DNA of 64,000 bases from Chitinophagaceae bacterium (GTDB taxonomy: Bacteria; Bacteroidota; Bacteroidia; Chitinophagales; Chitinophagaceae): positions 282,168-346,167 of the forward strand of contig JAHBTJ010000005.1 of assembly GCA_019638595.1 (NCBI GenBank), given 5' to 3'. The position numbers were made by a program, and so were the translations under genes. Below the pieces are notes generated by a model that worked only from the letters and a program-made list of their open reading frames with translations, had not been told where the DNA came from and ran no database searches. This document shows, one piece after another, positions 1,392 through 23,379 of this stretch; position 1 is the stretch's first letter; each line of letters begins with the position of its first letter.

Positions 1392-1943
1392 ATGACAAAG
1401 AAAAAACAACATGCTAAGGAACCGGAAGAGAAAAAGCCATTCATCATTCTGAATGCAAAAGTTAAAGAAGGTATCTGTGAATACAGCTACGAAATCAATT
1501 CCGGCCCCTGCGAAGGAGACCAGGTAAAAGGTCGGAAAGGAATCAATATTGTACATGATGATCTTACTGATGCATTCAGTAAGCTGGATGTTCACCTCGC
1601 TATACTGGATGATGCTTTTATTGATCAGGAGCTGTCATTGGAAGAAATGGAGAAAGAAACGAAATCTTTCAGGGTATACGGATTCAGGGTAAGCGGCACA
1701 GATGAGAATGAAGGTTTTATATTGAGCGGAGAAAAATGGGTGAAATATGGAAGTGTAGGTATTGACTCTCCTAAAATAACTAAAGCAAGCGCATATCCCT
1801 ACTGGCAGGAACTCTGTGATGCAATGGAAGCAGCTCGTAACGAGGTACAGGGTTATATGAATGGGAAATCAGCACCTAAGATGGAACAAACAGAAATCAA
1901 CTTTTCCGCACCAGGAGGTGATGACTTTAATAATCCCATGTAA
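1392..1943 (+). CDS. Hypothetical element protein (183 aa)
   Basis: I do not recognise this family. The protein starts with a Lys/Glu-rich segment (MTKKKQHAKEPEEKKPF), followed by a region rich in beta-type alternation and a helical stretch around residues 125-155. The acidic, Phe-containing tail (NFSAPGGDDFNNPM) resembles the C-terminal peptides by which partners bind SSB-like or clamp proteins, but that is inference. The stop codon overlaps the helicase start (TAATG), so the two are probably co-translated. The position between exonuclease and helicase suggests a replication or recombination accessory. Confidence 0.6.
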   Translation: MTKKKQHAKEPEEKKPFIILNAKVKEGICEYSYEINSGPCEGDQVKGRKGINIVHDDLTDAFSKLDVHLAILDDAFIDQELSLEEMEKETKSFRVYGFRVSGTDENEGFILSGEKWVKYGSVGIDSPKITKASAYPYWQELCDAMEAARNEVQGYMNGKSAPKMEQTEINFSAPGGDDFNNPM

Positions 1944-4225
1944 TGTTATTTGCACCAGAACAATTAGCCACCAACACGTTTACACCCCGGCCATACCAGA
2001 CCGGAGCCATAGATGCTGCTGTTAATTTCTTCAACGGACAGTGTAAGGAGCATGGGCTCGTAGTGCTCCCGACAGGAGCTGGGAAAAGCATCGTTATTGC
2101 TAATATAGCAAAAGAGCTGGAGGGCAATACTATTGTGTTTCAACCATCAAAGGAGATACTGGAGCAGAATTATGCGAAATTTATCAGCTATGGTTACCGG
2201 GCATCCATATACAGCGCCAGTGCAGGGCAAAAGAAGATTGATAAGATAACATTTGCCACAATTGGGAGCGTCGCAAAAAAACAACACCTTTTTAAAAATT
2301 ATCGAAACATTATTGTTGATGAATGTCATCTCGTTAACAGCAAAACCAAGACAGTTAAAGAAAATGATGGCAGTGAGATTGTTAAGGGTGGAATGTATTA
2401 CAGCTTTTTTGAAGCGATTGAAGATTGCAGGATCCTGGGACTTACTGCTACTCCATACCGCTTAAGCACAGGAATGGATGGGGCTATGTTAAAATTTCTA
2501 ACCCGGACCAGGCCAAAGACATTCAGCGATGTATTATATGTAGTTCAAACCAGGGAACTATTTGCTGCTGGTTACCTGGCTAAGCTTGAATACTTTTCTT
2601 TTGATACTATAGATAGAAAAATGCTGAGCCTGAACAGCACTGGTTCTGACTTCACAGAAGCATCGCTAAAAGCTTACTACAGAAAAATAAATTTTCCAAA
2701 GGTTACAGCTTACTGGGCTAACAGGATCATTGCCAAGCGCAAAAATCTTTTGATTTTCTCAACAATGATTTCCGAAGCATACGAAGCAGCCAGGCTCATA
2801 CCTGATGCTGTTGTGCTCACTGGAAAGACAGAAACGCGGCAAAGGGAAAGGATACTTAGTGACTTTAAGGCCGGCAGGATCAAGGTACTGGTTAATGTTG
2901 GTGTGCTCACGACAGGGTTTGACTTCCCTGCTCTGGAGGCAGTATTAATAGCAAGAAGTACAATGAGCCTGGCACTATACTATCAAATGTGCTTGGACAT
3001 GGAAACAGAAGTGCTGACAAAAAGAGGTTTTTTAAAACATGGTGAAATAAACGTAAGTGATGAGGTGGCAGCATATATTAAAGAAACCGGAGAAATTAAA
3101 TGGACTTCCATCAAAAATATTATTCATAGACCAATAGCGAAAGAAGAATATTTTATACAATATAAAAATCAACATTTAGATTTCAGAGTGACAGATAATC
3201 ATGATATGATTTTCAGAGCAAGAGGTGCAAAATCATATAGAAAAGATAAAGCAAATGAAATGATGAATTTGAATTGTATGATAGATGTTCCTGTATCTGC
3301 AAAGGAGATTATTGATGATACTGATATATCCGATGACCAGTTATTGTTTCTTGGGCTGTTTTTATCTGATGGCTCATTAAATAAAGTGAACAATACAATA
3401 AATATAGTTCAATCTGAGAATTATCCACTACGACTGAACGTTATTGAGGATTGTTTAAAAAACTGCGGTTTCAAGTTTGGTAAATGTATTCGGGTAAGAA
3501 AGGGTAACGAATCAAAATATTCAAACATGGTTCATTATAGCATTTCACACGGAATGCCAAGAGGGAAAAATAAAGATAAAACAGGATGGAGCGTACTTGA
3601 AAAATGGATTAATAAATCAATGAATGACAATTATAACCTCTTGAGTGAAAGGCAATTTGAAATTCTTCTTAAAGGGGTAAATCTTGGAGATGGGCGTAAA
3701 TATCAATCAACAGATTATAAAGTATCTACCATGACAATAGCAATGGGTATTAATAAAACTTATGCTGATAATTTCCAAAGCCTATGTATTCGACGTGGCT
3801 ATAGGGCGAATATGTCGATTATAAAAAAAGAGGGATTCAAAGATCAATATATTCTGAACATAAAAAAAATATCAAAATCCACAATCGCTGGTAATAATAT
3901 TTCCGACAAAAAAATACTGAACAGGTCTTTCAAGAGAACACGAATGGAGAAAGTCAGAGGTGCCGGAGAGAATGTTTGGTGTATCGAAAATGAAATTGGG
4001 ACAATAGTAACCAGACGTAACGGGAAAGTTATGATGACTGGAAATTGTGGCCGCGCTATGAGGCCGCATCCGGATAAAGAGAGCGCCTGGATCGTGGATC
4101 TTGGCGGCAATATCAATTTTTTTGGCAAAATAGAAACGTTAAATGTTACCCGGAATAACCGCGGATTATGGGTTGTCACCAACAATGGCAGACAGCTCAC
4201 GAATGTAAACTTTACAAAATCTTAA
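1943..4225 (+). CDS. Superfamily 2 DEAD/DEAH-box helicase interrupted by an intein
   Basis: The 760-residue precursor holds an SF2 helicase of about 408 residues once the intein is removed. Visible motifs are Walker A LPTGAGKS (about residue 34), motif II VDECH (about 128), motif III LTATPYR (about 170), and in the second RecA-like domain TTGFDFPALE. Motif VI is split: QM before the intein and CGRAMRP after it, which join to QMCGRAMRP (QxxGRxxRP). The protein would unwind or translocate on DNA during element replication or repair. It is the longest gene in the element module and is followed two bases later by the clamp gene. Confidence 0.92.
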   Translation: MLFAPEQLATNTFTPRPYQTGAIDAAVNFFNGQCKEHGLVVLPTGAGKSIVIANIAKELEGNTIVFQPSKEILEQNYAKFISYGYRASIYSASAGQKKIDKITFATIGSVAKKQHLFKNYRNIIVDECHLVNSKTKTVKENDGSEIVKGGMYYSFFEAIEDCRILGLTATPYRLSTGMDGAMLKFLTRTRPKTFSDVLYVVQTRELFAAGYLAKLEYFSFDTIDRKMLSLNSTGSDFTEASLKAYYRKINFPKVTAYWANRIIAKRKNLLIFSTMISEAYEAARLIPDAVVLTGKTETRQRERILSDFKAGRIKVLVNVGVLTTGFDFPALEAVLIARSTMSLALYYQMCLDMETEVLTKRGFLKHGEINVSDEVAAYIKETGEIKWTSIKNIIHRPIAKEEYFIQYKNQHLDFRVTDNHDMIFRARGAKSYRKDKANEMMNLNCMIDVPVSAKEIIDDTDISDDQLLFLGLFLSDGSLNKVNNTINIVQSENYPLRLNVIEDCLKNCGFKFGKCIRVRKGNESKYSNMVHYSISHGMPRGKNKDKTGWSVLEKWINKSMNDNYNLLSERQFEILLKGVNLGDGRKYQSTDYKVSTMTIAMGINKTYADNFQSLCIRRGYRANMSIIKKEGFKDQYILNIKKISKSTIAGNNISDKKILNRSFKRTRMEKVRGAGENVWCIENEIGTIVTRRNGKVMMTGNCGRAMRPHPDKESAWIVDLGGNINFFGKIETLNVTRNNRGLWVVTNNGRQLTNVNFTKS
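2990..4045 (+). other. Intein (352 aa) with LAGLIDADG homing endonuclease
   Basis: The intein begins at Cys350 (CLDMETEVLTKRG, a typical block A) and ends with RRNGKVMMTGN followed by Cys702, the +1 nucleophile. Asn701 is the terminal residue and Gly700 takes the place of the usual penultimate His. Two LAGLIDADG-like motifs are visible: LLFLGLFLSDGS near residue 467 and LLKGVNLGDG near 575. It therefore looks like an active-type intein with its endonuclease, able both to splice and to home into intein-free helicase alleles. The insertion point is the ATP-binding motif VI, a conserved site as usual for inteins. The intein DNA is A+T-rich compared with the extein. Confidence 0.93.
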
Positions 4226-4226
4226 A

Positions 4227-5291
4227 ATGAAAAAAGTTACAGTAAAATCAGAACTGATAAAAAAAGCTTTGTCGAAGCTTGGTGCAGCTGTGAATAATAA
4301 AGTTATACCTGCGCTGGAAAATGTTTATTGCAAGGTGGAAGGTAGTACGATTGCTCTTACCACATGCGATACTGAAATGTTGATTCGCTATAACCTTATG
4401 GCCGAATCGGACGGGGATGGAGAATTCTTTTTGAGCTTTCACCTGTTTAATAGCATCGTGAAGTTATGTAAAGAAGAAGTGATTGAATTTGAGCCGCTGA
4501 AAGCATCTGTAAAAGTAAAAATCGGGAAAGATGTCTATACTTTGAAGTTCAATGCGAAGCTTGAAGATTTTCCTAAATTAAGTGAGGCGCCTTCACAGCA
4601 TGAGGTTGAATTTGATGACAGATTGATAGCTATGATGGTGGCTGCAACAGAATCTGCCAGCAAGTCCGAAACTGATCCGAGATTGGCTCGTATTTGTCTC
4701 AATATTAATTACACTGGTACTGACATTGTGGGCACTGATAGTTATATTCTATATAAATACAATTCTCCGGCAGAGTTAAAAGTTACTACTTCCTTATTGC
4801 TTTCTCCACGAATGGTAAAGGCTATTGATGGGCTGGAACAGATTGTAATAAAATGGAATGATTCTAAATTTAGTTTCTCCACGCCTGAGATCCTGATAGT
4901 TATTAACAGACCGGAATTTAAATATCCAAACTACCTGGGTATAATACCAAACCATGAATCTAACCTGAAGATCAGCCGATCTGCATTGGTTGAAACATTT
5001 AAGAAGCTCAATATTTCCGAAACCAAAACATCTGCTCTTCATTTACTATCAGATGCGATCAAAGCCGAAGTTGAAGATAAAGCTACAGGAGTAAAAATCA
5101 ATGCCGAAGTGGATTGTATCTATAGCGGCCAGGTGACTGATATTTCATTAAACGCGGCCGATATTCTAAGATTATGCCACCAAACAACTTGTGAGCACCT
5201 TGAGCTGGCAATTCATAGCCCGAACAAAGCTGTTGTAGTTCGAGGTGAAGATCCTAACTACCTGGCATTAATAATCCCAACTTTTAAATAA
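4227..5291 (+). CDS. DNA polymerase III beta subunit-like sliding clamp
   Basis: The 354-residue length and the pattern through the protein match the three-domain bacterial beta clamp: SKLGAAVNNKVIPALENV near the N-terminus, LTTCDTEMLIRYNL, then GTDSYILYKY in the middle, and VVVRGEDPNYLALIIPTF at the end (compare the usual ...YLVMPMRL). It is divergent, as element-borne clamps are. It would form a dimeric ring tethering a polymerase or other clamp-binding enzymes to DNA. It lies between the helicase and the methyltransferase, and its stop overlaps the next start (TAATG). Confidence 0.82.
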   Translation: MKKVTVKSELIKKALSKLGAAVNNKVIPALENVYCKVEGSTIALTTCDTEMLIRYNLMAESDGDGEFFLSFHLFNSIVKLCKEEVIEFEPLKASVKVKIGKDVYTLKFNAKLEDFPKLSEAPSQHEVEFDDRLIAMMVAATESASKSETDPRLARICLNINYTGTDIVGTDSYILYKYNSPAELKVTTSLLLSPRMVKAIDGLEQIVIKWNDSKFSFSTPEILIVINRPEFKYPNYLGIIPNHESNLKISRSALVETFKKLNISETKTSALHLLSDAIKAEVEDKATGVKINAEVDCIYSGQVTDISLNAADILRLCHQTTCEHLELAIHSPNKAVVVRGEDPNYLALIIPTFK

Positions 5292-6913
5292 TGACAACTC
5301 AACAATTGCTGCAGCAATGCACCATCGACAATAATATCGTCCTGCTTCCAAATATCAAACTGGAAAGAAAAGAATACATGGAAGTGAAGAAAGCTCTTGA
5401 GCTAATTGGGGGTAAGTGGAAGGGAGGTAAAACGCAAGGGTTTGTATTTGAACAGGATCCAACAGAACTGCTGCAGGCACAGGCCAGTGGTGAACAGCGG
5501 AATCTGAAAAAGGAATACCAGTTCTTTCCAACGCCGCCAGCAGTAGCAAAAATGATGATGGAATGCCTTCCTGAAGTGAAACCCGGCTACAAAGTGCTGG
5601 AGCCTTCCGCAGGTGATGGAGCACTCATAAAAGCTTTTCATGACCAGATTGGTCATATCGGGCGGGAAGTTGATTGCTTCGAGCTAATGGATGTGAATCG
5701 AATAAAGCTTAAATCCATTAAGGGGGCCAACATCATTGGTGAAGATTTTATGGAATGTAAAAAGTGGGATGAGTATGATCTGGTAATTGCAAATCCGCCC
5801 TTTACTAAAAACCAGGATATAGACCATATTGGCAGAATGTTCAAGGTATGTAAACCATCCGGCTTAATAATAACACTTGCCAGTGGGTCCTGGAAGCATG
5901 GCTCACAAAAGAAGCATAAACAGTTCAGGGAATGGCTTGATAACATGGTCACTACAGAAGAGGAAATTCCGGCCGGAATGTTCAAGGAATCTGGTACGAT
6001 GGTTTCTACAATCCTATTACGAATTGTGAAACCATTATATGCCGGTGACCTCCCATGGGAACGCCCGGAAACATTTACTGTTTCTTCTCCTGAATTACAA
6101 AAACAGGCTGAAAAATTTATTGCAAACCGGTTTTCTTCCACTGAGGCCAATAGCAATATAGCTGAGGATGAGCCTATTACAGAATTAGTGGGCGAAGCAC
6201 AGACAGAAGAAAGTGAAAATCTCCCAGAACGTAAATGCCGTGTTTGTGGCTGCACTGATAATGATTGCCGGCAATGTATAAAGAAAACCGGGAAACCATG
6301 CCATTGGGTGGAAGAAGATCTGTGCAGCGCCTGTGTAACTCGTGAACCGGAGGAAATTTTGAAGGATATAAAACAGAGCATGAAAGAAGCTGATAAAACC
6401 TTCAATGAACTTGAGAAAATGCTATCACCAAAAAATAACGATATGAATTTTTTTGAACAGTTGTCAAATGCCGGATCGGTTGATATTACTCTTCGCATTA
6501 TGAAGAAAAATGAAAAGCTTACGGTAAATGTAATGCCTGGCTCTGGTCAGTCGGTCACTCAGCCGATCATTATAACCGGCACCCCGCAGGATCTTGACGC
6601 TGAGTTTTTCAATACGCTATATCCGCAAGTGGAAGAAGTGACAGGCATCATTCATAACATTGAAAGGGTGAAATCCCAGGCAATTGATAGAAAAGAAAAA
6701 AGTGAAAAGAAGCCTGCCGAAACCAACCCACCCAAACCATCCGCTCCACAAAAAAAGGCAAAGGAAAAGGCTGATAAGAAAGTTAATGTTAAGGCGAAAG
6801 AACCTGTAACGGAACGGGCCAACCTATTTGAGGAGGATAATACCCAATCGTCAACCGATCAAACTGATTCCAATGACACAGAAACAAAAAAAGATGATGG
6901 AGATACTGATTAG
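5291..6913 (+). CDS. DNA N6-adenine methyltransferase fused to PRTRC system protein E
   Basis: Three parts are visible in 540 residues. Residues 70-260 are a Rossmann methyltransferase with the SAM motif LEPSAGDGAL and the catalytic NPPF motif (VIANPPFTK) of N6-adenine enzymes. Residues about 316-350 form a Cys-rich putative zinc site (CRVCGCTDNDCRQC ... CHWVEEDLCSAC). From Met385, MNFFEQLSNAGSVDITLRIM with the later TGTPQDLDAEFF matches PRTRC protein E, followed by a Lys/Pro-rich tail. A separate start at 6443 is possible but no clear ribosome site precedes it, so I read this as one fused protein. PRTRC protein C follows two genes on, as expected. Confidence 0.85.
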   Translation: MTTQQLLQQCTIDNNIVLLPNIKLERKEYMEVKKALELIGGKWKGGKTQGFVFEQDPTELLQAQASGEQRNLKKEYQFFPTPPAVAKMMMECLPEVKPGYKVLEPSAGDGALIKAFHDQIGHIGREVDCFELMDVNRIKLKSIKGANIIGEDFMECKKWDEYDLVIANPPFTKNQDIDHIGRMFKVCKPSGLIITLASGSWKHGSQKKHKQFREWLDNMVTTEEEIPAGMFKESGTMVSTILLRIVKPLYAGDLPWERPETFTVSSPELQKQAEKFIANRFSSTEANSNIAEDEPITELVGEAQTEESENLPERKCRVCGCTDNDCRQCIKKTGKPCHWVEEDLCSACVTREPEEILKDIKQSMKEADKTFNELEKMLSPKNNDMNFFEQLSNAGSVDITLRIMKKNEKLTVNVMPGSGQSVTQPIIITGTPQDLDAEFFNTLYPQVEEVTGIIHNIERVKSQAIDRKEKSEKKPAETNPPKPSAPQKKAKEKADKKVNVKAKEPVTERANLFEEDNTQSSTDQTDSNDTETKKDDGDTD

Positions 6914-7151
6914 TGGTGGATGCATCAGCGCCGGCTATCGCGTGCTTGATGAAAACCGCAATCCGGTGATGAAAATATCATCTGAAACATTCAAAAATTA
7001 TAAATACCTGTTCCGAAAGTCCGGTATTGTCTACCTGATCAATAAGTCGAAAGTCAGGCAGGAGCATGGGAATTCATTTATTAAAAAACAGTATAAAAAT
7101 TTATCAAATGGCATTAGAAGTAACCAACCTGGAACGGGAGTTCAGGTTTAA
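6873..7151 (+). CDS. Small hypothetical protein between PRTRC E and C
   Basis: From the ATG at 6873 this gives a 92-residue protein (MTQKQKKMMEILISGGCISAG...) overlapping the end of the fusion gene by about 40 bases and the start of PRTRC C by about 44 bases. The first 60 residues look like a small winged or DNA-binding domain (FKNYKYLFRKSGIVYLINKSKV). The last 25 residues lie in the overlap and look less natural. The family was not recognised. Confidence 0.5.
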   Translation: MTQKQKKMMEILISGGCISAGYRVLDENRNPVMKISSETFKNYKYLFRKSGIVYLINKSKVRQEHGNSFIKKQYKNLSNGIRSNQPGTGVQV

Positions 7152-7329
7152 AAAAGATGGTACGGAAGTAAAGCTTCCTGATCCGAATCCGGAATTCACT
7201 ACCAATGAGGTTTTGCAATTTTATTCGGGACAATACCCGGAGCTAACTACCGCTACATTGGAAGGTCCAAAAACAGATGGCACAAAAGCGGTGTATTCTG
7301 TAAAAACCACTATCGGCACAAAAGGTTGA
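7108..7329 (+). CDS. PRTRC system protein C
   Basis: This 73-residue protein matches the family almost from end to end: MALEVTNLEREFRFKKDG, LPDPNPEFTTNEVLQFYSG, YPELTTATLEGP and the ending TTIGTKG are its hallmark segments. The start at 7108 gives the usual family length, so the longer reading from 7066 is not used. The molecular function of PRTRC C is unknown. The family is defined only by conserved co-occurrence on plasmids and integrated elements with ParB-, E-, F-, B-, A-, D- and ThiF-type genes. Confidence 0.92.
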   Translation: MALEVTNLEREFRFKKDGTEVKLPDPNPEFTTNEVLQFYSGQYPELTTATLEGPKTDGTKAVYSVKTTIGTKG

Positions 7330-7330
7330 G

Positions 7331-7588
7331 ATGAGGCGAAACTTCGAACAAAATAAAAAGCTTATATCAGACTTGATTCAGCCAAGGCTCAACAAGCTGG
7401 GTGTAATCAGGACCAGTAACGCCTGGAAAATCTGCAAGGGCGACCCTTCGCTACCATATAGCTCTGTTGCCTTTCATTTTAAAGTTATTATGATGAAAAT
7501 GGTGGAAGAGGGTAAAGCTGACCGTATCTGCGGAGGTGTTTATTTCATTCATAAAAATTCTTTCAGTGAAAAAGAAACCAGACTTTAA
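7331..7588 (+). CDS. Small hypothetical protein (85 aa) in the PRTRC cluster
   Basis: It starts one base after the PRTRC C stop codon, so the two are probably coupled. The protein has a basic N-terminal helix (NFEQNKKLISDLIQPRLNKLG) and ends in VYFIHKNSFSEKETRL. I do not recognise the family. It has no membrane segment or Cys/His motif. The length and composition would suit a small DNA-binding or scaffold protein, which is inference only. Confidence 0.55.
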   Translation: MRRNFEQNKKLISDLIQPRLNKLGVIRTSNAWKICKGDPSLPYSSVAFHFKVIMMKMVEEGKADRICGGVYFIHKNSFSEKETRL

Positions 7589-7594
7589 AAAAAC

Positions 7595-8764
7595 ATGCCG
7601 AAAACAATTAACCATACAACAACTTCACGAAGAGCTCGGAGAAATATTTCAAAAAGAAATATCAAAAAAAGATCTGGACGCAAGATTTGCACAAGAAAGG
7701 CCCAGGCAGTTGCCCCCGTCATTGCAAATTCCATATTTGCCTTAAAGCTGACGCCGATCCCGGGCGTATTCGTTGAGCAAAAAGTAAAACGAAGGAGAAG
7801 AAACAGCTGGGAGATCGAAGATGATTACGAGAAAATGTATTATGATCTTTTTGCAGCTTATAAAAATTATTGTCATCTCCTGGGTAAGGATGCGGTAGTG
7901 ATGGATCCTTTTAAAAACGGCATTGATCTGAGTAAGTCATTATATCTCCTTACCGGACGCATCAAAAATATTGTGCCTAAAGGCTTTGATTTCAATATTG
8001 ACCGACAGGGGGACAATTATTGCATCACAGTTATGAAGGCGCTTGACCTTGAAAACCGCTGGCATTTTTTCAATATCGAGCCGGTGGTGAAATTTCTTAA
8101 AAAGAAAGACGAAGTACTACATGACCTGTTCCTGTCAGCTATAGCAATATTGTCTGCAACAGATATACAAACATGGTATGATTGCAGCCTATACGCCTTA
8201 GATGTGATGATGGATGAGTATAACATTATGGATTGGATTGAATGCCGGATAGAGGATGAGTCGGAAGTGGAAAGAATGATGGTTGAAATAAATATCCTGC
8301 GCAATAGCTATCAAAAGGGTGAGATATATGCTTATCAAAGACGAATCGGAAATTCCTTTATGAGTCCAGTATTACTGGAAATGAAAACCAGGAAATTAAA
8401 TGTGCGCAACCCAATCAAAAAATGGATACTTAAGGTGGCGGCAATGGCAAAAGAAGGCTTTCGGCTGAGAGACTTTATTTACGAAGGGATTAACGAAGAA
8501 TATGGCGAAGGAGCTATTCGGCTGGAAGACCAGATTACTATTTTATGGAGTGATAAGGATTTTGTTTTTGATGTGACTTCGGAAGTAATTGATAATGAAG
8601 CTGCAAATTTTGGCGTGCAGTCTCCGGTTTATCATTTCGCTATTGATGAGCAGACAAAGCATATTCCTTTTGAAAATATGAGTAATGCGCAAAGGTGGAT
8701 TAATGATATCGAAGAATTATTCAACAGTTACCAGGACGTGCTAAAATATATAAAATATGAATGA
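7595..8764 (+). CDS. PRTRC protein F-like (assigned mainly by position)
   Basis: The 389-residue frame lies between C and B, exactly where protein F sits in PRTRC cassettes, and has about the length of that family. Residues 70-389 look like a genuine acidic, mostly helical protein (WEIEDDYEKMYYDLFAAYKNY, LDLENRWHFFNIEPVVKFL, NPIKKWILKVAAMAKEG). The first 45 residues are Arg/Lys/Thr-rich and look like an out-of-frame reading. A better amphipathic sequence lies in the frame starting upstream at 7566 (GTG) and would join this frame by a -1 shift at a run of five C at 7713-7717. The true N-terminus is therefore uncertain. Confidence 0.65.
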   Translation: MPKTINHTTTSRRARRNISKRNIKKRSGRKICTRKAQAVAPVIANSIFALKLTPIPGVFVEQKVKRRRRNSWEIEDDYEKMYYDLFAAYKNYCHLLGKDAVVMDPFKNGIDLSKSLYLLTGRIKNIVPKGFDFNIDRQGDNYCITVMKALDLENRWHFFNIEPVVKFLKKKDEVLHDLFLSAIAILSATDIQTWYDCSLYALDVMMDEYNIMDWIECRIEDESEVERMMVEINILRNSYQKGEIYAYQRRIGNSFMSPVLLEMKTRKLNVRNPIKKWILKVAAMAKEGFRLRDFIYEGINEEYGEGAIRLEDQITILWSDKDFVFDVTSEVIDNEAANFGVQSPVYHFAIDEQTKHIPFENMSNAQRWINDIEELFNSYQDVLKYIKYE

Positions 8765-9464
8765 CAGAACCGATTTACTCCTCAGCGAATACAAGCCATC
8801 AGTAGTAATCATGGTGTATAAGGGCGGGCATAACAAATATTACCTGGAAAGTCATGATGTAAATGGTCGTGGTGAGATACTTGCCGGCAAACCGCTGCTG
8901 CAGGAAACCCTGCAGGCAGTAGTAGATGTGTTTTTTGATGAAAGAAAGAATAGAACGGCTATCGGCGGCATTATGCCTGATAATTTGCTCCACTTCTGTC
9001 ATCTTCCAGGCGGCAATTACCGGATGATCTGGTTTAGACCGGAGGAGCAGCGTGTTATCCACCACGCAGAATCTCTTAAAATCAAAACCGGTATTACTTC
9101 TGTGCCGGCGCTTATCTATAGGGTTAGCGGTGGTGATCTTGATGTTTTTGCCTTAAAGGCCAACAAAAGGCCTGATGAAAAAACAAAGTTATTTGTCGCC
9201 CCATTTTTTAATGTATCAAATGATGGAGGTGTCTGTCTAGGTAACGCTAAAGTAGAGAAACCAAAGGTGCTCACTTTTTCAAACCTGATAAAATATTGGG
9301 AGGATCTTTTCTGGCTTAGCGAGTTCAGCCATGTCAACGGAAATGAAAAAGTAAAATCAGGAGACCTGACAAAGATTTGGCGATCACTTGTCGGTGCAAA
9401 ACAGAAGTTTCCAAAAGAGGAGCTGATGCCATCTGAAGTAACAATGAAAAATATTATAGCATGA
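8757..9464 (+). CDS. PRTRC system protein B
   Basis: The 235-residue length, the order in the cassette and segments such as YYLESHDVNGRGEILAGKPL, GGIMPDNLLHF and the middle PALIYRVSGGDLDVFALK match PRTRC protein B. The biochemical role is unknown. The start overlaps the end of the F-like gene, and the stop overlaps the ThiF start by an ATGA, so B and the ThiF homologue are translationally coupled. No signal peptide or membrane segment is present. Confidence 0.88.
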   Translation: MNDRTDLLLSEYKPSVVIMVYKGGHNKYYLESHDVNGRGEILAGKPLLQETLQAVVDVFFDERKNRTAIGGIMPDNLLHFCHLPGGNYRMIWFRPEEQRVIHHAESLKIKTGITSVPALIYRVSGGDLDVFALKANKRPDEKTKLFVAPFFNVSNDGGVCLGNAKVEKPKVLTFSNLIKYWEDLFWLSEFSHVNGNEKVKSGDLTKIWRSLVGAKQKFPKEELMPSEVTMKNIIA

Positions 9465-10225
9465 TTCATTATACTGCTCCATATTTGTTGAACCCGCAAC
9501 ACAGGATCACCATTGACCTGATCGGATGCGGAGGCACTGGAAGCCAGGTGCTCAGTAATCTCGGTAGAATGAATTATGCCCTGGTGGGCCTCGGTCATCC
9601 GGGACTGCAGGTTAAAGCCTGGGACCCTGATGTGGTGACCTCATCAAACTCAGGACGGCAACTCTTCTCTCCCTCCGACCTCAACCAGAATAAAGCTGCC
9701 GTGCTTGTTACCCGTGTAAACAGATACTATGGCACTGAATGGCAAAGTGAGCCGTATTATTACTCTGGCCAAGGTGAGGAATATAGTAATATCACCATTA
9801 GCTGTGTAGATACAGTTGCAGCTCGACTGGATATAGATCAGCAGCTTCGTCATCCGGTAGCAGCAAAAACTGAACAGCCATTTACTAAATTATATTACTG
9901 GCTGGATTTAGGCAACCTTAAAAAGACAGGTCAGGCTGTTCTCGGAACTATTGGATCAATACCGCAGCCAAAAGGACAGAAAAGCAAAGCCACCTTAAAA
10001 AATGTCGTGAAACTTTTCCCGCAGATGAAAAATATAAAAGATGAAGATCAGGGACCATCTTGCTCACTGGCAGAGGCACTACAGGGTCAAGATTTGTTTA
10101 TCAATAGCACCCTGGCTCAGTTCGGGTGTGACCTCTTATGGAAGCTCATCAGGGAAGGCAGCATCCGCTATCACGGCTGTTATGTCAATCTTGAAACCAT
10201 GACTGTTAATCCGATTAAAATTTAG
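9461..10225 (+). CDS. PRTRC system ThiF/E1-like protein
   Basis: This 254-residue E1-superfamily protein has the Rossmann nucleotide site IDLIGCGGTGSQVLSNLGR (residues 17-35), followed by WDPDVVTSSNSGRQLFSPSDLNQNKA, the Asp/Arg/Lys set used by ThiF/MoeB/UBA1 for adenylating a C-terminal Gly. ISCVDTVAARL matches the later conserved Asp. No CxxC zinc pairs are evident and no ubiquitin-like substrate gene is obvious nearby. PRTRC protein A (an MPN/JAB-type protein) would usually stand next to it but is absent here: B and ThiF overlap directly. Confidence 0.9.
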   Translation: MIHYTAPYLLNPQHRITIDLIGCGGTGSQVLSNLGRMNYALVGLGHPGLQVKAWDPDVVTSSNSGRQLFSPSDLNQNKAAVLVTRVNRYYGTEWQSEPYYYSGQGEEYSNITISCVDTVAARLDIDQQLRHPVAAKTEQPFTKLYYWLDLGNLKKTGQAVLGTIGSIPQPKGQKSKATLKNVVKLFPQMKNIKDEDQGPSCSLAEALQGQDLFINSTLAQFGCDLLWKLIREGSIRYHGCYVNLETMTVNPIKI

Positions 10226-11122: not shown

Positions 11123-12296
11123 AATCCGAACTATAAAACCGACACATCATTCCGATAGGAAATTGCCGGAGATATCCCTGCAGGCACATCTGCTATGGGT
11201 GCTTAATTGGTGTTGGTCTGACGATGAAGGAATCTTTGAAAACGACCCCTTACTTATAAGATCAAACAATTTTCCACGCAGAACTGATATTAGGGTTGAA
11301 CAGATAATACAATGGCTTGACCAGTTAGTAAAAGCCCGGTTCCTAGTACCCTTTACGTATAATGGCGAAGGCTACTACATAAACCGCACTTTCAAAACTC
11401 ATCAAAAAATTGACCGTCCACAGGCTTCAAAGATTCCTTTGGATGTTATTTTTTCAATTCGTGGACAGTTCGACGAACGTTCGACGATTGATCGAGACGA
11501 TTCGACTCAGTATAGTAATGTATTGGAAAGTAGTGTAGAAGAGAGTAAAGGAGAGTATTTGGGGGCACCTTCGGCGCCAACCGCACCACCGGATGTTGGT
11601 AAAAAATCGAAAAAAAAGCCTGTAGAACAAAAAAAGTTTGTTCCGCCATCGCTTTCCGAAGTCGAAAAGTATTTCATCGCCACGATGGGAAACCCAACCG
11701 ACCCGCGCTGCTGGATGGAAGCCAAATGTATCAACCAGGCGGGGCAATGCTTCGATCACTACACCGCCAACGGTTGGGTGCAGGGCCGCGGAAAACCCAT
11801 TAAAAACTGGCAGGCATCCTGTCGTAACTGGATCCGTAATGAGCTAAACGGCACCTATGGCCCGGTAAGAAAAAGTGAGCCGCCGCAGAAAAAAAATGAG
11901 GAACCGCCGCCAGCGCTATCGGTTGAAGCAACACCATCGCCCCCGGCAATGCCCAAAACGGCAGTTGAGATCAACTACCTGTTTGAGCGGTTCATGGAAG
12001 GTCAGGTAACGATCATCAGTGTTGATGCTGCTCATTACGACTACCTGAAGAAAGCCGGCAGGATCAACTGGACCAAGGAGCAAACGGCTGCGATCAGCCA
12101 ACAGGCAAAAGACCATATCACGGAGAAAAGCCTGCCGGCAGACGAAAAAAATGTGCTGAAGTTCATGAAGCTGTTTGGGGTGATCGAGTATTTCCAACAA
12201 CAAAAAACAAAAGGTGATGAGAAAATATTCTGTGAAAAAGATTTCTCCGGTGCCGCAGCATTTAGGGCACAGACGCCGGTTCTATATCGGCATTGA
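11115..12296 (+). CDS. Phage replisome-organiser-like protein
   Basis: The N-terminal about 110 residues begin MPRIRTIKPTHHSDRKLPEIS and continue with WVLNWCWSDDEGIFENDPLLI and TFKTHQKIDRP. This is the winged-helix pattern of phage replication initiators or helicase loaders of the DnaD/replisome-organiser type. A Pro/Lys-rich linker (residues about 150-180) leads to a region with CWMEAKCINQAGQCFDHYTANGW and KNWQASCRNWIRNEL, typical of the same family. It would bind the element origin or load the helicase. The gene overlaps the RuvC-like gene by 80 bases, which is long for a real overlap but both frames look genuine. Confidence 0.7.
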   Translation: MPRIRTIKPTHHSDRKLPEISLQAHLLWVLNWCWSDDEGIFENDPLLIRSNNFPRRTDIRVEQIIQWLDQLVKARFLVPFTYNGEGYYINRTFKTHQKIDRPQASKIPLDVIFSIRGQFDERSTIDRDDSTQYSNVLESSVEESKGEYLGAPSAPTAPPDVGKKSKKKPVEQKKFVPPSLSEVEKYFIATMGNPTDPRCWMEAKCINQAGQCFDHYTANGWVQGRGKPIKNWQASCRNWIRNELNGTYGPVRKSEPPQKKNEEPPPALSVEATPSPPAMPKTAVEINYLFERFMEGQVTIISVDAAHYDYLKKAGRINWTKEQTAAISQQAKDHITEKSLPADEKNVLKFMKLFGVIEYFQQQKTKGDEKIFCEKDFSGAAAFRAQTPVLYRH

Positions 12297-12702
12297 TTGC
12301 GGAGTAAATACCGGAATAGCCAAGTGGGACAAGGAAATGAAGCGGCTGACACTCGTGAAAAGCACAACCATCCTTCAGGCAATTGCTGAAGTGAAGGATG
12401 CCTGGGAACATGATCGGGGAACAGTATTTGTCCGAGTGGAAGATGCCCGCCTTCGCAAGTGGATACCCAGGCAAAAAACTGAATCGTCTGAACGTGGAAG
12501 GCGAGAAGGTGCCGGCAGCGTGAAACGTGATGCGATCATATGGGAAGAGTTTTTAACAAGCGAGAATATTCCGCATGAGTTTGTGGCGCCAAAGAATAAC
12601 AAAACGAAAATGACAGCCGAATACTTCAAAAAAATATCCGGCTGGATGGGATCAACAAACAGTCATGCGCGGGATGCCGCGGCATTGGTAATCGGTTTAT
12701 GA
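12217..12702 (+). CDS. RuvC-like Holliday junction resolvase
   Basis: The 161-residue protein has an RNase H-like fold: FYIGIDCGVNTGIAKWD near the start supplies the first catalytic Asp, FVRVEDAR the Glu, and the C-terminal SHARDAAALVIG the final Asp. This is the arrangement of phage RuvC-family resolvases. It would cut four-way junctions or other branched DNA made during element replication or recombination. The ATG at 12217 is preferred over the GTG directly before it. The ATGA at its end overlaps the next gene. Confidence 0.8.
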   Translation: MRKYSVKKISPVPQHLGHRRRFYIGIDCGVNTGIAKWDKEMKRLTLVKSTTILQAIAEVKDAWEHDRGTVFVRVEDARLRKWIPRQKTESSERGRREGAGSVKRDAIIWEEFLTSENIPHEFVAPKNNKTKMTAEYFKKISGWMGSTNSHARDAAALVIGL

Positions 12703-18029: not shown

Positions 18030-18239
18030 ATGAGCGATATAAAAATAACTCAGGATGTGCAAAATGAAGAATGGCTTACGATAAGGGAAGCTACAATATT
18101 TATAAAATGTGAATCTAAGTCAAGCTTATACAAATATTGCTCCCTCAACAAGATTCGAAGAACCAAAGTGTTGAGGAAAACTTTGGTATCCAAAGTTGAT
18201 TTAAAACGAGCGTTGGAGAGAAATGCTATTGTTGTTTAG
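18030..18239 (+). CDS. Excisionase-like helix-turn-helix protein
   Basis: The 69-residue protein reads EEWLTIREATIFIKCESKSSLYKYC-like, with the LTIREAT and SLYKY pattern of MerR-type winged helix (DUF3853/excisionase) domains, and a basic end (DLKRALERN). It lies directly against the integrase gene on the opposite strand and overlaps it by 14 bases, the usual place of a recombination directionality factor. The start at 18030 is used because the upstream extension re-reads the previous gene. Confidence 0.6.
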   Translation: MSDIKITQDVQNEEWLTIREATIFIKCESKSSLYKYCSLNKIRRTKVLRKTLVSKVDLKRALERNAIVV

Positions 18240-19587
18240 GCTTAAGATTTTTTATATCAGTTTTTTCTAACATTTTTTTATGCCCCCTTGCTTTTATTTT
18301 TGCAACATGCCTATCGTATTTTGAAAGCATTTTAATTCCTGAGTGTCCAACCATATCCTTTACAACATACTTATCTATTCCCTCGGCAAGTAGGTTGGCA
18401 ATAAAGGTACTGCGACCAACATAAGGTGTCACATCGGTATATTCAATGCCTGCTATCTCGAATAAAACCCGCAGATGATAAATTTCATTCGATTCGCTAG
18501 TAATACAATCAAAGAATCCTGGTTGTGATTTAAAGAAGTTGTATGCCTCTACAGCAAAAGGCAACAAAGTAACTCCGTATTTTTTGTTATTTTTGGTTCT
18601 TCCTTTGTATAAATAAACAAGACCATTTTCAACCTCATCAAAATGCTCTCTTTTAATACTCTTTACTTCTTTATAACCGGTGCCGGAGCCAGCCATAAAC
18701 AGGAAAAAGTATTTTGATCTTTTAAGCGGTGGGCTCAATTTTTCATTATCCATTCCCCAGATGATTTCAATGTCATCGAATCCGACCGGCTCCCTGTCCG
18801 AATCATCAAAAACCCCGATTAATCCATGTCTAATAGGCACATGTTTTATTAATCCCAATCCCCCTTCTTGTATTGGCAGCGCCGAAAAATTCATTACGGC
18901 CCGGAGCTTTGATAAATATGTTTTTATCGTATTAGGAGATAAAGTGCCGCCTTCTGGTTTCAATCTATTTTTGGGTTGCTTAAGCAGGAATGACTTAAAT
19001 TCATCTGTATCATTTATAGAAATTTCAGATACCAGAACGCTGTCTTTTTTATACTTTTCTTGCCAAAAACTCTTTAAAAACCTAACCGTAATGTCATATT
19101 TTAGCTTGGTGTTTTCAGACATTTCACCTGTATGTTGTTCATAAGAGCCAATATACGCCTTTGTAACTACTGAAAACTCGTGCTCCTGTAGTACGCTTAA
19201 CTGCGATTTGTATATCTGTTTCCTAGATTTACGACCGGTAATAGCCGGTTTGATACCGATCTCAACCTCTTTTATTATCGTTGCTAAATCCGTCTCCCCA
19301 TTCCCCAACAGTCGTTGTAGATATTGCCTTATTAACAACCTGGAATCGTCAATCTTTTTATTGTTCAGGGCAGCAATGCCATTATTCCCTTTTACATAAT
19401 AGCCATCCCACGATTCTTTGTTACACATTATTCCAAGTCCGGCGGTCACTCTTTTATTCGTGAGCCAGATATTGTTCAAGGCAAACTCAAATCTGAAATA
19501 TATTTCTATAATTCCCTTTTTTGTTTTATGTTTTTTTGAATAAAGAGTGTACCTTACTATAACATTTCCCAGATGTTCAAGTGACAT
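18226..19587 (-). CDS. Tyrosine recombinase (integrase) with altered catalytic residues
   Basis: From ATG 19587 the protein has 453 residues: an arm-binding N-terminus, a SAM-like core-binding domain (VTKAYIGSYEQHTGEMSENT) and a C-terminal catalytic domain. Box I reads TGYK (residues 303-306) where TGLR is usual. Box II reads YVGR (389-392) where HxxR is usual. The later His (GHSG, 415) and the nucleophile Tyr (KYDRH, 424) are present. It lies next to tRNA-Leu and is the likely enzyme for integration. Loss of the box I Arg could mean reduced activity. A GTG at 19722 would add 45 unnatural residues. Confidence 0.85.
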   Translation of the reverse strand: MSLEHLGNVIVRYTLYSKKHKTKKGIIEIYFRFEFALNNIWLTNKRVTAGLGIMCNKESWDGYYVKGNNGIAALNNKKIDDSRLLIRQYLQRLLGNGETDLATIIKEVEIGIKPAITGRKSRKQIYKSQLSVLQEHEFSVVTKAYIGSYEQHTGEMSENTKLKYDITVRFLKSFWQEKYKKDSVLVSEISINDTDEFKSFLLKQPKNRLKPEGGTLSPNTIKTYLSKLRAVMNFSALPIQEGGLGLIKHVPIRHGLIGVFDDSDREPVGFDDIEIIWGMDNEKLSPPLKRSKYFFLFMAGSGTGYKEVKSIKREHFDEVENGLVYLYKGRTKNNKKYGVTLLPFAVEAYNFFKSQPGFFDCITSESNEIYHLRVLFEIAGIEYTDVTPYVGRSTFIANLLAEGIDKYVVKDMVGHSGIKMLSKYDRHVAKIKARGHKKMLEKTDIKNLKPKQQ

Positions 19588-19770
19588 AAGTACGGTTTTT
19601 TGAAGTAGGGAATAAATGTAGAAGAAAAATATCGGAATTAAGTTCCCTACATCGAAAAGTCCGCCATCCAACCGCCAATTTTCGATGAATTTCCACGGTC
19701 TTTCATGTACTACTATGTACACTTCCTATTTGTTATAAGAAACCATTGGTATTGATTTACAACTAAATAT

Positions 19771-19803: not shown

Positions 19804-19805
19804 TG

Positions 19806-19890
19806 TGCCCAGAACAGGAATCGAACCTGCACATTGTTGCCAATACCAGATTTTGAGTCTGACGCGTCTACCAGTTCCGCCATCTGGGCA
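19806..19890 (-). tRNA. tRNA-Leu (CAA)
   Basis: On the - strand this 85-base sequence starts TGCCCAGATGGCGGAACTGG and ends with GGTTCGATTCCTG and TTCTGGGCA. Acceptor ends pair (TGCCCAG with CTGGGCA), the D-loop GGTAGACGCG is typical, the anticodon loop is CTCAAAA (anticodon CAA) and a long variable arm is present, as in class II leucine tRNAs. The 3' end faces the integrase gene, so it is the likely attachment site of the element. The 3' CCA is not encoded. Confidence 0.93.
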
Positions 19891-22047: not shown

Positions 22048-23379
22048 ATGAGCATGAAAAACAGGTTTTCACTATTGGCTGTTGTGCTGGTCATCATCAT
22101 TTCCTGCGAAAAAAAAGAGATCCTTTTAGCTGAAACCGCCGCAATTACCCAGGCGGCAGGAGATACCATTCAATGGGTGCAATTTGAAGATTTGCCTGAG
22201 AAATACAGGAGTGCGAAAAGGGTTGTGATGACAGAGGACAGGCAGGATGCGGTAAGCAAGCGATTGATTGAAACTTCTTATGGACCTTATGGTAACACAT
22301 CAGGTGGCGACTATTTTGGTTTCCCCATCAGTAACCACCGCCTGCTGATGATTGCCATCGGCACCTACGATGGTCGCAAGCCGAACCAGATAATGATCTG
22401 GGCGGAAGACCCCGATGGAGTGCTGGTAATGTATACCAGCCAGGAACCCGGTGCAAGCAGTTTGCAGCTCAGGTATACCGTGCCCGGAGAATATATCCGG
22501 GGCGTGGGTGGTTATTACGGTGAATGCCTGAACCGCCTGGAAATATATACCAATGTAACTGCATTATCTATGGGAGAGTTAACAGGCACGCGTTTTATAG
22601 ATATACCCGGTACCGGTTTTGACGTAAGCCGCTTTTACGGGTTCACCGGGCTGACTAAAATCTCGCGCCTCTACTTCCAGGCGGCAGAAAGACCCTGGTC
22701 GCCCATATCAGGATCGGCAGCCAGGGATATAGCTGTTGATACAGCCGGAAAAATATACAAGGTAAGCAGAACTACAGGCTCTATATACCAAAGGGCCGCC
22801 AATGCTGCTTCCTGGTTGCTTATGAGTGGTACAGAAAATTCAGAAAGGATAGCAGCGAACGCAGGCCGGGTATATATCATTCGCTCATCCGGCAGGATTT
22901 ACCGCTTGTCGGGCACTACCTGGACCGTTACAGCTACCGATTGCCCGGGAGGTGCAAAAGATATAGCGGTTGACGCCAACGGTAAGTTGTGGGTGGTTAC
23001 CAAACCGGGTTATATCTATACCCTGGAAGGTAATTCCTGGGTAAAACAACCCGGATCTTCAGGTTATAGAATAGGGGCCGGTGGCGTTGCAGGTCAAAAC
23101 AGCCAGGTTTGGCTTGTGAATTCAGTGGGCAAAATCTATAATTGGAATGCCACCCAGGGCAAATGGGAACAACGGGCCGGCAGTGACGGAATAGATATTA
23201 CGGTGGACAACCATTATAATACCTGGCTCACAAATTCAATAGGGAGAACATACAGGTACGACTATGCCAGGAAAGATTGGATTGAGTTTAAAACTGCGAA
23301 TGCCGGCTCGGTATCGGCGAATGCCAATAAACTGGTGATGATGAATAGTGTAGGCACTTTATATGAAATGCGTTATTGA
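22048..23379 (+). CDS. Lipoprotein with jacalin-like lectin domain and tectonin propeller
   Basis: A lipobox (VLVIIISCEKK, Cys about residue 20) marks a surface or periplasmic lipoprotein. Residues about 75-215 have jacalin features: GPYGNTSGGDYFGF, YIRGVGGYYG, LNRLEIYTN and GFTGLTKISRLYFQ. Residues 220-443 carry about five tectonin-like repeats, each with DIAVD-type starts and W/G-rich ends (ARDIAVDTAGKIYKVS, AKDIAVDANGKLWVV, GIDITVDNHYNTWLT). Both modules are glycan binders elsewhere, so this is probably a carbohydrate-binding surface protein. No enzyme domain is present. Confidence 0.8.
   Translation: MSMKNRFSLLAVVLVIIISCEKKEILLAETAAITQAAGDTIQWVQFEDLPEKYRSAKRVVMTEDRQDAVSKRLIETSYGPYGNTSGGDYFGFPISNHRLLMIAIGTYDGRKPNQIMIWAEDPDGVLVMYTSQEPGASSLQLRYTVPGEYIRGVGGYYGECLNRLEIYTNVTALSMGELTGTRFIDIPGTGFDVSRFYGFTGLTKISRLYFQAAERPWSPISGSAARDIAVDTAGKIYKVSRTTGSIYQRAANAASWLLMSGTENSERIAANAGRVYIIRSSGRIYRLSGTTWTVTATDCPGGAKDIAVDANGKLWVVTKPGYIYTLEGNSWVKQPGSSGYRIGAGGVAGQNSQVWLVNSVGKIYNWNATQGKWEQRAGSDGIDITVDNHYNTWLTNSIGRTYRYDYARKDWIEFKTANAGSVSANANKLVMMNSVGTLYEMRY

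Follow-up and report, generated by a model that had tools for sequence, protein, structure and literature searches.

What does the PRTRC cassette, a bacterial ubiquitin-like (Ubl) conjugation system, act on, and what is to be made of a locus in which one of its proteins is joined to a DNA methyltransferase? The locus lies in a phage-like element of a Chitinophagaceae bacterium (assembly GCA_019638595.1, contig JAHBTJ010000005.1, positions 282,168 to 346,167 of the forward strand); this whole stretch of 64,000 nucleotides is called the window here. A literature search, made without subscription papers or preprints, found no proposed target of PRTRC. An earlier sequence-only reading of the window had described PRTRC protein E as the C-terminal part of a methyltransferase, and had taken DNA methylation as a hint to the target of this E1-like system. 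Judged by sequence comparison, the methyltransferase-Cys-cluster-E fusion is genuine, and the wider link in our data is to the sliding clamp rather than to methylation.

Architecture of the fusion gene

The fusion gene (5291..6913, on the plus strand like the cassette, clamp and helicase features located below) is one open frame of 540 codons, i.e., 540 amino acids. It encodes, in order, an N-terminal domain (residues 1-66, 5291..5488), a methyltransferase core (residues 74-246, 5510..6028), a putative zinc-binding Cys cluster of the pattern CRVCGC...LCSAC (residues 316-348, 6236..6334), a linker (residues 350-384, 6338..6442) and PRTRC protein E (residues 385-540, 6443..6910). The E part was recognized by two curated family models, both above cut-off within residues 386-504, as the sequence-only reading had proposed: TIGR03741 (PRTRC_E) at E=4e-11 and 42.8 bits against a cut-off of 37.95 over residues 389-479, and PF19556 (PRTRC_E) at 9.5e-13 over residues 386-504. 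A chance match to PRTRC_E is ruled out by these two models together with the recurrence of the fusion described below. The Cys cluster was likewise seen, between methyltransferase and E, with metal binding predicted from its pattern.

The methyltransferase core was matched by PF02384 (N6_Mtase; 22.3 bits against a cut-off of 20.4, residues 73-174), and the only solved-structure sequences matching the fusion at E<=0.1 were four of M.TaqI (E=4e-4 to 1.3e-3). The core also carries LEPSAGDG (residue 103) and NPPF (residue 168), which we take to be methyltransferase motifs I and IV. With PF02384 above its cut-off, M.TaqI at E=4e-4 and both motifs present, the product is an N6-adenine-type DNA methyltransferase by family, its activity being predicted from sequence only. 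A phage relative, phrog_9133 (PHROGs), aligns with residues 3-247.

The AlphaFold model of E is good only over about its residues 1-90 (a helix, three strands and a long helix), and the tail is of low confidence. No PDB fold matched the E model at E<=0.001, double-stranded RNA-binding domain chains appearing only among the weak matches, and the fold was therefore set aside as a clue to function. The same genome holds a second PRTRC cassette elsewhere, with a standalone E.

Occurrence of the fusion

Among the sampled loci (numbered with L), methyltransferase core, Cys cluster and E stand in one frame only in the window, L228, L229 and L246. All four complete fusions have the same order and follow a sliding-clamp gene, and three of them are diverged viral contigs. 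The window, L228 and L229 have an E that passes the NCBIfam cut-off; that of L246 scores 37.8 bits against 37.95 with NCBIfam, but 51.7 against 26 with Pfam. An assembly or stop-loss artefact specific to the window is ruled out by the three other contigs. Pairwise identity among the four is 56-64% in the methyltransferase core, 62-81% in the Cys cluster, 31-57% in the 35-residue linker and 36-44% in E. The spacer between core and Cys cluster is 23-26% identical in the three pairs with >=43 aligned columns; the 60-80% of the other three pairs were obtained over 5 columns only. Since the linker is conserved about as well as E and the frame has stayed open over this divergence, selection appears to act on the joined protein.

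The fusion is nevertheless rare. Only 18 of 227 mapped E frames have >40 residues ahead of E, namely the window with its two copies, L228, L229, L246, L152, L084 and ten others; the ten have a stop-to-stop frame of no more than about 150 residues and match neither the methyltransferase nor the Cys-cluster model. Outside the listed fusions, none of the 227 frames matched our own models of these two parts. In L084 (4364-5776), E is fused behind zinc ribbons that were recognized by eye. Two fusions without the methyltransferase core tell against a regular partnership of core and E: L152, in which the N-terminal domain of the methyltransferase is joined to E, and L230, in which a Cys cluster is followed by an E-like region recognized by eye only, with no family matched by the models. 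The contig of L152 (5044-6630) is labelled as a metagenome-assembled genome of Legionellaceae; its PRTRC genes group with those of Bacteroidota and viral contigs, and it is possibly misbinned.

The sequence-only reading had also suggested a survey of genomes for the same fusion. In partly overlapping surveys of 195, 396 and 395 genomes, the window held the only above-cut-off E in a long frame (541 codons), the other above-cut-off E frames having 85 to 274 codons. G439 (22.5 bits) and G474 (20.2 bits) also have matches in long frames, but these fall under the cut-off and were left out of the fusions. A first viral scan with a single ThiF protein found no relative.

In a quick tree of B and ThiF from 88 loci, the window fell into a set of 13 (support 94, under the 95 at which the tool gives a star). 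Its other members are L228, L229, L230 and nine loci without a fusion; L246 and L152 were placed elsewhere. On this tree the fused state requires 4 changes, at least 2 of which are imposed by starred branches. The distribution of the fusion is hence patchy, and several gains, losses or transfers have to be assumed.

Other arrangements of methyltransferase genes were also seen. A different methyltransferase gene lies directly ahead of a separate E in L194 and L202. In the Piscinibacter plasmid L144 (5866-9343), PRTRC ParB, E and C directly follow a gene for an N-6 DNA methylase, and the faecal phage contig L027 (1-7140) carries A, ThiF, a clamp, a methyltransferase and B, with the clamp after ThiF and not before E. 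Methyltransferase genes elsewhere in several loci have no background rate and were not used as evidence.

A probable internal translation start

The E part begins at a Met codon, and the question is whether it is also translated on its own. The putative start site (6418..6445, i.e., 25 nucleotides and the ATG at 6443-6445) was scored with a matrix built from 40 gene starts of the window, 6443 excluded, and the other fusions were scored with the same matrix. Among the 175 internal in-frame ATGs in 18 open reading frames (ORFs) of the window, 6443 comes first, and it scores above 35 of the 40 true starts, each scored with itself left out. The start Met of E is retained in five of six fusions and ranks first within its gene in each (window 1/15, L228 1/8, L229 1/14, L246 1/14, L152 1/11), although these five are related and the ranks are hence not independent. 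Scores as high as those of the fusions' E start were reached by 6 to 31 of 3560 internal ATGs in neighbouring genes and, where E is a gene of its own, by 12 to 31 of 108 starts. Upstream of 6443 lies an A-rich stretch placed as in the F. johnsoniae start sites described in PMC6847099, with G at position -3 here.

Synonymous recoding matched the score in 5.6, 3.4, 9.3, 7.9 and 0.4% of draws for the five fusions, and each of these tests is weak alone (0.0045 to 0.093). Further points to the detriment of an internal start are that the internal Met of L084 is without start-like context (606/3560 score as high) and that L230 has lost the Met. On balance of these comparisons, E alone is probably also made, from 6443. 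A new start at 6443 had been named in the sequence-only reading as evidence that would undo the fusion. Start-like context and a retained Met were indeed found, but the linker before 6443 is conserved as protein, which argues for two products rather than no fusion; the internal start was therefore rejected as a full refutation.

The E tail and the sliding clamp

The clamp gene of the element, a DnaN homologue (4227..5291), adjoins the fusion so closely that its stop codon and the start codon of the fusion share one base, the last of the former and the first of the latter. In 24 of 167 rows, counting the window, the gene immediately ahead of E is a clamp gene; the 167 are the distinct E proteins left after rows with <=90 model columns or identical first 100 residues were removed. 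The E tail of the window contains RANLF (residues 509-513, 6815..6829), which resembles a clamp-binding motif and lies in the low-confidence part of the model. The published clamp-binding consensus (PMC12309361) is QL[S/D]LF or QxxLF, with xxxLF forms in some polymerases; RANLF agrees with it at positions 4-5 and not at position 1.

The strict pattern [SDNTEPGM][LM]F was found in 136 of the 167 E tails, whereas 300 shuffles gave 15.8 on average and never more than 28, the pattern having been picked after some tails had been seen. When relaxed to [SDNTEPGM][LMI][FWY] it was found in 146/167 (45 on average and 62 at most after shuffling). In a less redundant set of 115 tails, [LM]F occurred in 93. 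The residue before it was enriched 9.2-fold for S and 3.2-fold for D, values inflated by a script that, in tails with more than one [LM]F, favoured one after S, D or N. At position 1 of the pentapeptide Q was enriched 3.0-fold, and Q..[LM]F was present in 26 of these tails (shuffled mean 1.4, maximum 5; 500 shuffles). The narrower [SDN][LM]F was present in 70/115 E tails (median length 80), as compared with 17/183, 27/189, 0/35, 0/44 and 3/25 of the C-terminal 85 residues of F, B, clamp, A and helicase, respectively.

The choice of pattern and the inflated S and D values count against binding of the clamp by the E tail, and so do several further results. Q..[LM]F is missing from 89 of the 115 tails, and RANLF itself is without the consensus Q. 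The C-terminal stretches of ThiF have [SDN][LM]F in 133/190 cases, mostly a conserved QDLF within the protein itself, and because of this the pattern alone is no proof of clamp binding. The strict motif was found in 19/24 rows with an upstream clamp and in 117/143 without, so that motif and phage clamp do not co-vary; L080, L082, L240, L243 and L245 have the clamp and lack the strict motif. Where no phage clamp is present, E would need that of the host. Ten plasmid regions were fetched and gave eight E candidates, five of them named only by their place between ParB and C (L293 yielded no candidate, and that of L292 was discarded as being another protein than E). Together with L144 and L025 they make ten candidates from Proteobacterial plasmids and a Burkholderia phage, of which 3 have the strict motif and 7 a motif when I, W and Y are allowed. 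Among 21 rows of the Burkholderia-type phage E, which are outside the 167, 18 end in D[ML]Y, two in DVW and one in neither, and none has [LM]F.

Clamp binding by the E tail is plausible from these motif counts. The sequence-only reading's use of methylation as a pointer to the target was too strong: core and E share a frame in four sampled loci only, so the methyltransferase is an occasional partner of E, and the link to the clamp is wider. A Cys cluster like that of the fusion was also seen at the N-terminus of the sliding clamp itself, directly upstream of E, in L243 (5902-7215) and L245 (5426-6787).

Other cassette genes and the surrounding element

The C, B and ThiF genes are genuine family members, as had been thought, each passing its curated cut-off with its conserved residues kept. 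PRTRC C (7108..7329) is ubiquitin-like with the C-terminus GTKG (PF14454 1.7e-24; TIGR03738 67.9 bits against 45.95); by start context its natural start is 7108, not 7066, and 141 of 191 rows of C end in GTKG. PRTRC B (8757..9464) is E2-like (Prok-E2_D; TIGR03737 136.7 bits against 131.45) and keeps the conserved Cys and His, the Cys occurring in 99% of 202 rows. PRTRC ThiF (9461..10225) is E1-like (TIGR03736 250.9 bits against 144.75) and keeps GxGGTG and the invariant Cys found in 100% of 207 rows. The residues that a working Ubl conjugation pathway would need are thus retained in ThiF, B and C, and such an activity is predicted.

An 85-amino-acid ORF with no assigned function (7331..7588), whose own model matches only itself and two copies, lies between C and F. 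The gene in the place of F (7595..8764) had been taken for PRTRC F by position; the assignment stays putative and relies on this place and on iterated similarity to same-slot genes elsewhere. Family models gave no support: the window protein had no NCBIfam or Pfam match at E<=1, and none of 83 proteins of the F slot matched PRTRC_F (TIGR03742, presumably the model of this protein) at E<=0.01. Compared with one annotated Cupriavidus F, hhalign gave a probability of 2.1 and E=0.023. Its AlphaFold model is confident (predicted local distance difference test 88.9) and had no PDB fold match at E<=0.001, so that the modelled fold is possibly new.

The sequence-only reading had also seen no ParB, A or D and called the cassette reduced. 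None of the three was found beside it. Neither A nor ParB was detected in the window by our own models, and the cassette is without a PRTRC ParB. Genome-wide, TIGR03735 found no A in the genome of the window, as in the control genomes, and D had no match there or in the control genomes, so the absence of A and D from the genome stays unproven. One sub-cut-off ParB match lies about 167 kb left of the window, and matches of the same kind occur in 8 of 14 control genomes. Relatives were sampled as the best 80 of 261 (clade set 1), the best 80 of 93 (clade set 2, 59 of them new) and the best 80 of 117 (broader viral set). By our own model, A was found in 0/80 loci of clade set 1 and 0/59 new loci of clade set 2, against 44/80 in the broader viral set. 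The order E-C-F-B-ThiF without A is therefore usual in the clade, and the term reduced fits only in that A was not found, with no special loss in the window. E, by its own model, was present in 69/80, 47/59 and 49/80 loci of the same three sets, i.e., in 165 of 219 ThiF loci. In L086 (9273-9998) and L128 (8498-9505), PRTRC A (JAB-type) has a similar Cys cluster at or near its C-terminus. The isolated Burkholderia phage BgVeeders33 (L025, 6252-10738) carries E, C, B, A-like and ThiF genes and a protein in the place of F, its cassette genes being annotated as hypothetical or generic.

A reading of the locus as a defence system was considered and set aside. The PADLOC models gave only weak local E1-E2 matches to ThiF (best 21 bits), none for C, F and B and, over the methyltransferase core of the fusion, generic methyltransferase models (best 46.9 bits) and mad2 (40.4 bits), i.e., nothing beyond the generic methyltransferase models.

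The element had been called phage-like and is a prophage, because terminase large subunit, portal and Sak4-like genes (PHROGs) are found in the 20 kb that border the window on its left, and right of the cassette an integrase (18226-19722) stands beside a tRNA-Leu (19805-19889). No exact 18-base tRNA-Leu or 16-base tRNA-Met attachment (att) repeat was found in the stretch examined. Of the clamp, helicase and resolvase that the element was said to own, the first two stand; for the putative resolvase (12214-12702), the sole Pfam match at E<=0.01 was DUF460, at 19.7 bits under the cut-off of 28. The helicase (1943..4225) contains an insert of about 335 residues (about residues 355-690) with intein-like ends, and the helicases of relatives (L077, L228, L229) are uninterrupted; an intein is its candidate identity. 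A protein with tectonin and jacalin-like lectin matches (22048-23379) lies right of the integrase and tRNA-Leu.

Possible mechanism and alternatives

The joint explanation that we prefer, with a confidence a little short of even, is that the gene gives both the fusion and E alone, that E is a clamp tether, and that the methyltransferase is brought to the clamp in this way. The gene would yield the full fusion and, from the start codon at 6443, E as a second product. E would dock on the sliding clamp via a short motif in its disordered C-terminal tail. The fusion could then take the N6-adenine-type methyltransferase to the clamp, leading to methylation of freshly replicated phage DNA, and free E may fill other clamp sites in the usual PRTRC manner. 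The presumed target of the Ubl protein, judged by gene order and the tail of E, is the clamp or a protein bound to it. In a broader form, to which we give only a small chance, PRTRC of phages and plasmids in general would work on the replication clamp, with E as adaptor in long and short forms, ThiF and B attaching C to the clamp or its clients, and the methyltransferase directed to the fork in this lineage.

It has a modest chance, in our estimate, that the methyltransferase is an orphan anti-restriction enzyme, to which E is an accessory for DNA contact or dimerisation, and that the Ubl cassette works separately and not via the clamp. Relatives of the methyltransferase were found in 217 phage records (e.g., Bacteroides phage BS-TP3) against 3 matching the cassette ThiF, L080 has a close relative as a separate gene about 3 kb ahead of clamp and E, and the scarcity of genes joining core and E (only 4 sampled loci) also fits an orphan. 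On the other hand, E domain, linker and E start site are kept in the fusions, the adjacent Ubl genes have conserved residues, and two fusions retain E without the core. Retention of the Met of E with its start-like context would also be expected if a stop codon had recently been lost, so that practically all E is made from 6443 and the tail of the methyltransferase ahead of it is irrelevant. This is very unlikely, considering that four contigs with cores 56-64% identical keep the frame open and the linker conserved as protein, and that in L230, where the internal Met is missing, the E-like part (by eye) could come only from the fused frame.

The fused methyltransferase may itself be the substrate or effector of the Ubl pathway, with E recognized by ThiF, B or C and conjugation of C controlling the enzyme. 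Such a role would suit the presence of E in 165/219 ThiF loci, the E tails (lysine-rich by eye), the GTKG end of C in 141/191 rows and the retention of conserved residues in B and ThiF. We consider it improbable, as the core-E fusion is confined to few loci. The clamp-tether explanation joins the recurrent methyltransferase fusion, the upstream clamp genes and the clamp-like E tails into a hypothesis on the site of action of a bacterial Ubl cassette. Binding of the clamp by E, if true, would confine the search for what PRTRC modifies to the replication fork.

Relation to described systems

The gene-neighbourhood type 6d of Iyer et al. 2006 (PMC1779556) comprises a small Ubl protein, a largely helical protein, an E2-like and an E1-like protein, and we read it as the PRTRC cassette. 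The window agrees with it in a Ubl protein with terminal Gly (C), a helical F, an E2-like B and an E1-like ThiF, and its gene order is that of other Bacteroidota PRTRC cassettes. It differs in that the JAB protein A, D and ParB were not found beside the cassette, in that E is fused behind a methyltransferase, and in the clamp gene directly upstream. With M.TaqI-like N6-adenine methyltransferases and phrog_9133 the fusion has the core with NPPF in common, but it runs on into the Cys cluster, the linker and PRTRC E. Compared with the clamp-binding motifs of PMC12309361, many E tails have S or D at position 3 and L or M followed by F at positions 4-5. However, Q at position 1 is found in a minority of tails, G or P is common at position 2, and W or Y endings occur in some Proteobacterial and Burkholderia phage E proteins.

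The layout of the fusion is similar to that of T7 gp4A/gp4B, although the proteins are different and the short E product is predicted: there, the long product has an extra N-terminal zinc-type part and the short one comes from an internal in-frame start. In eukaryotes, DNMT1 is recruited by PCNA and PCNA is ubiquitinated. The likeness to these lies in the proposed mechanism only, with no homology claimed; if PRTRC is indeed directed to the clamp, the cassette would be a prokaryotic parallel to PCNA ubiquitination and to the coupling of DNMT1 with PCNA.

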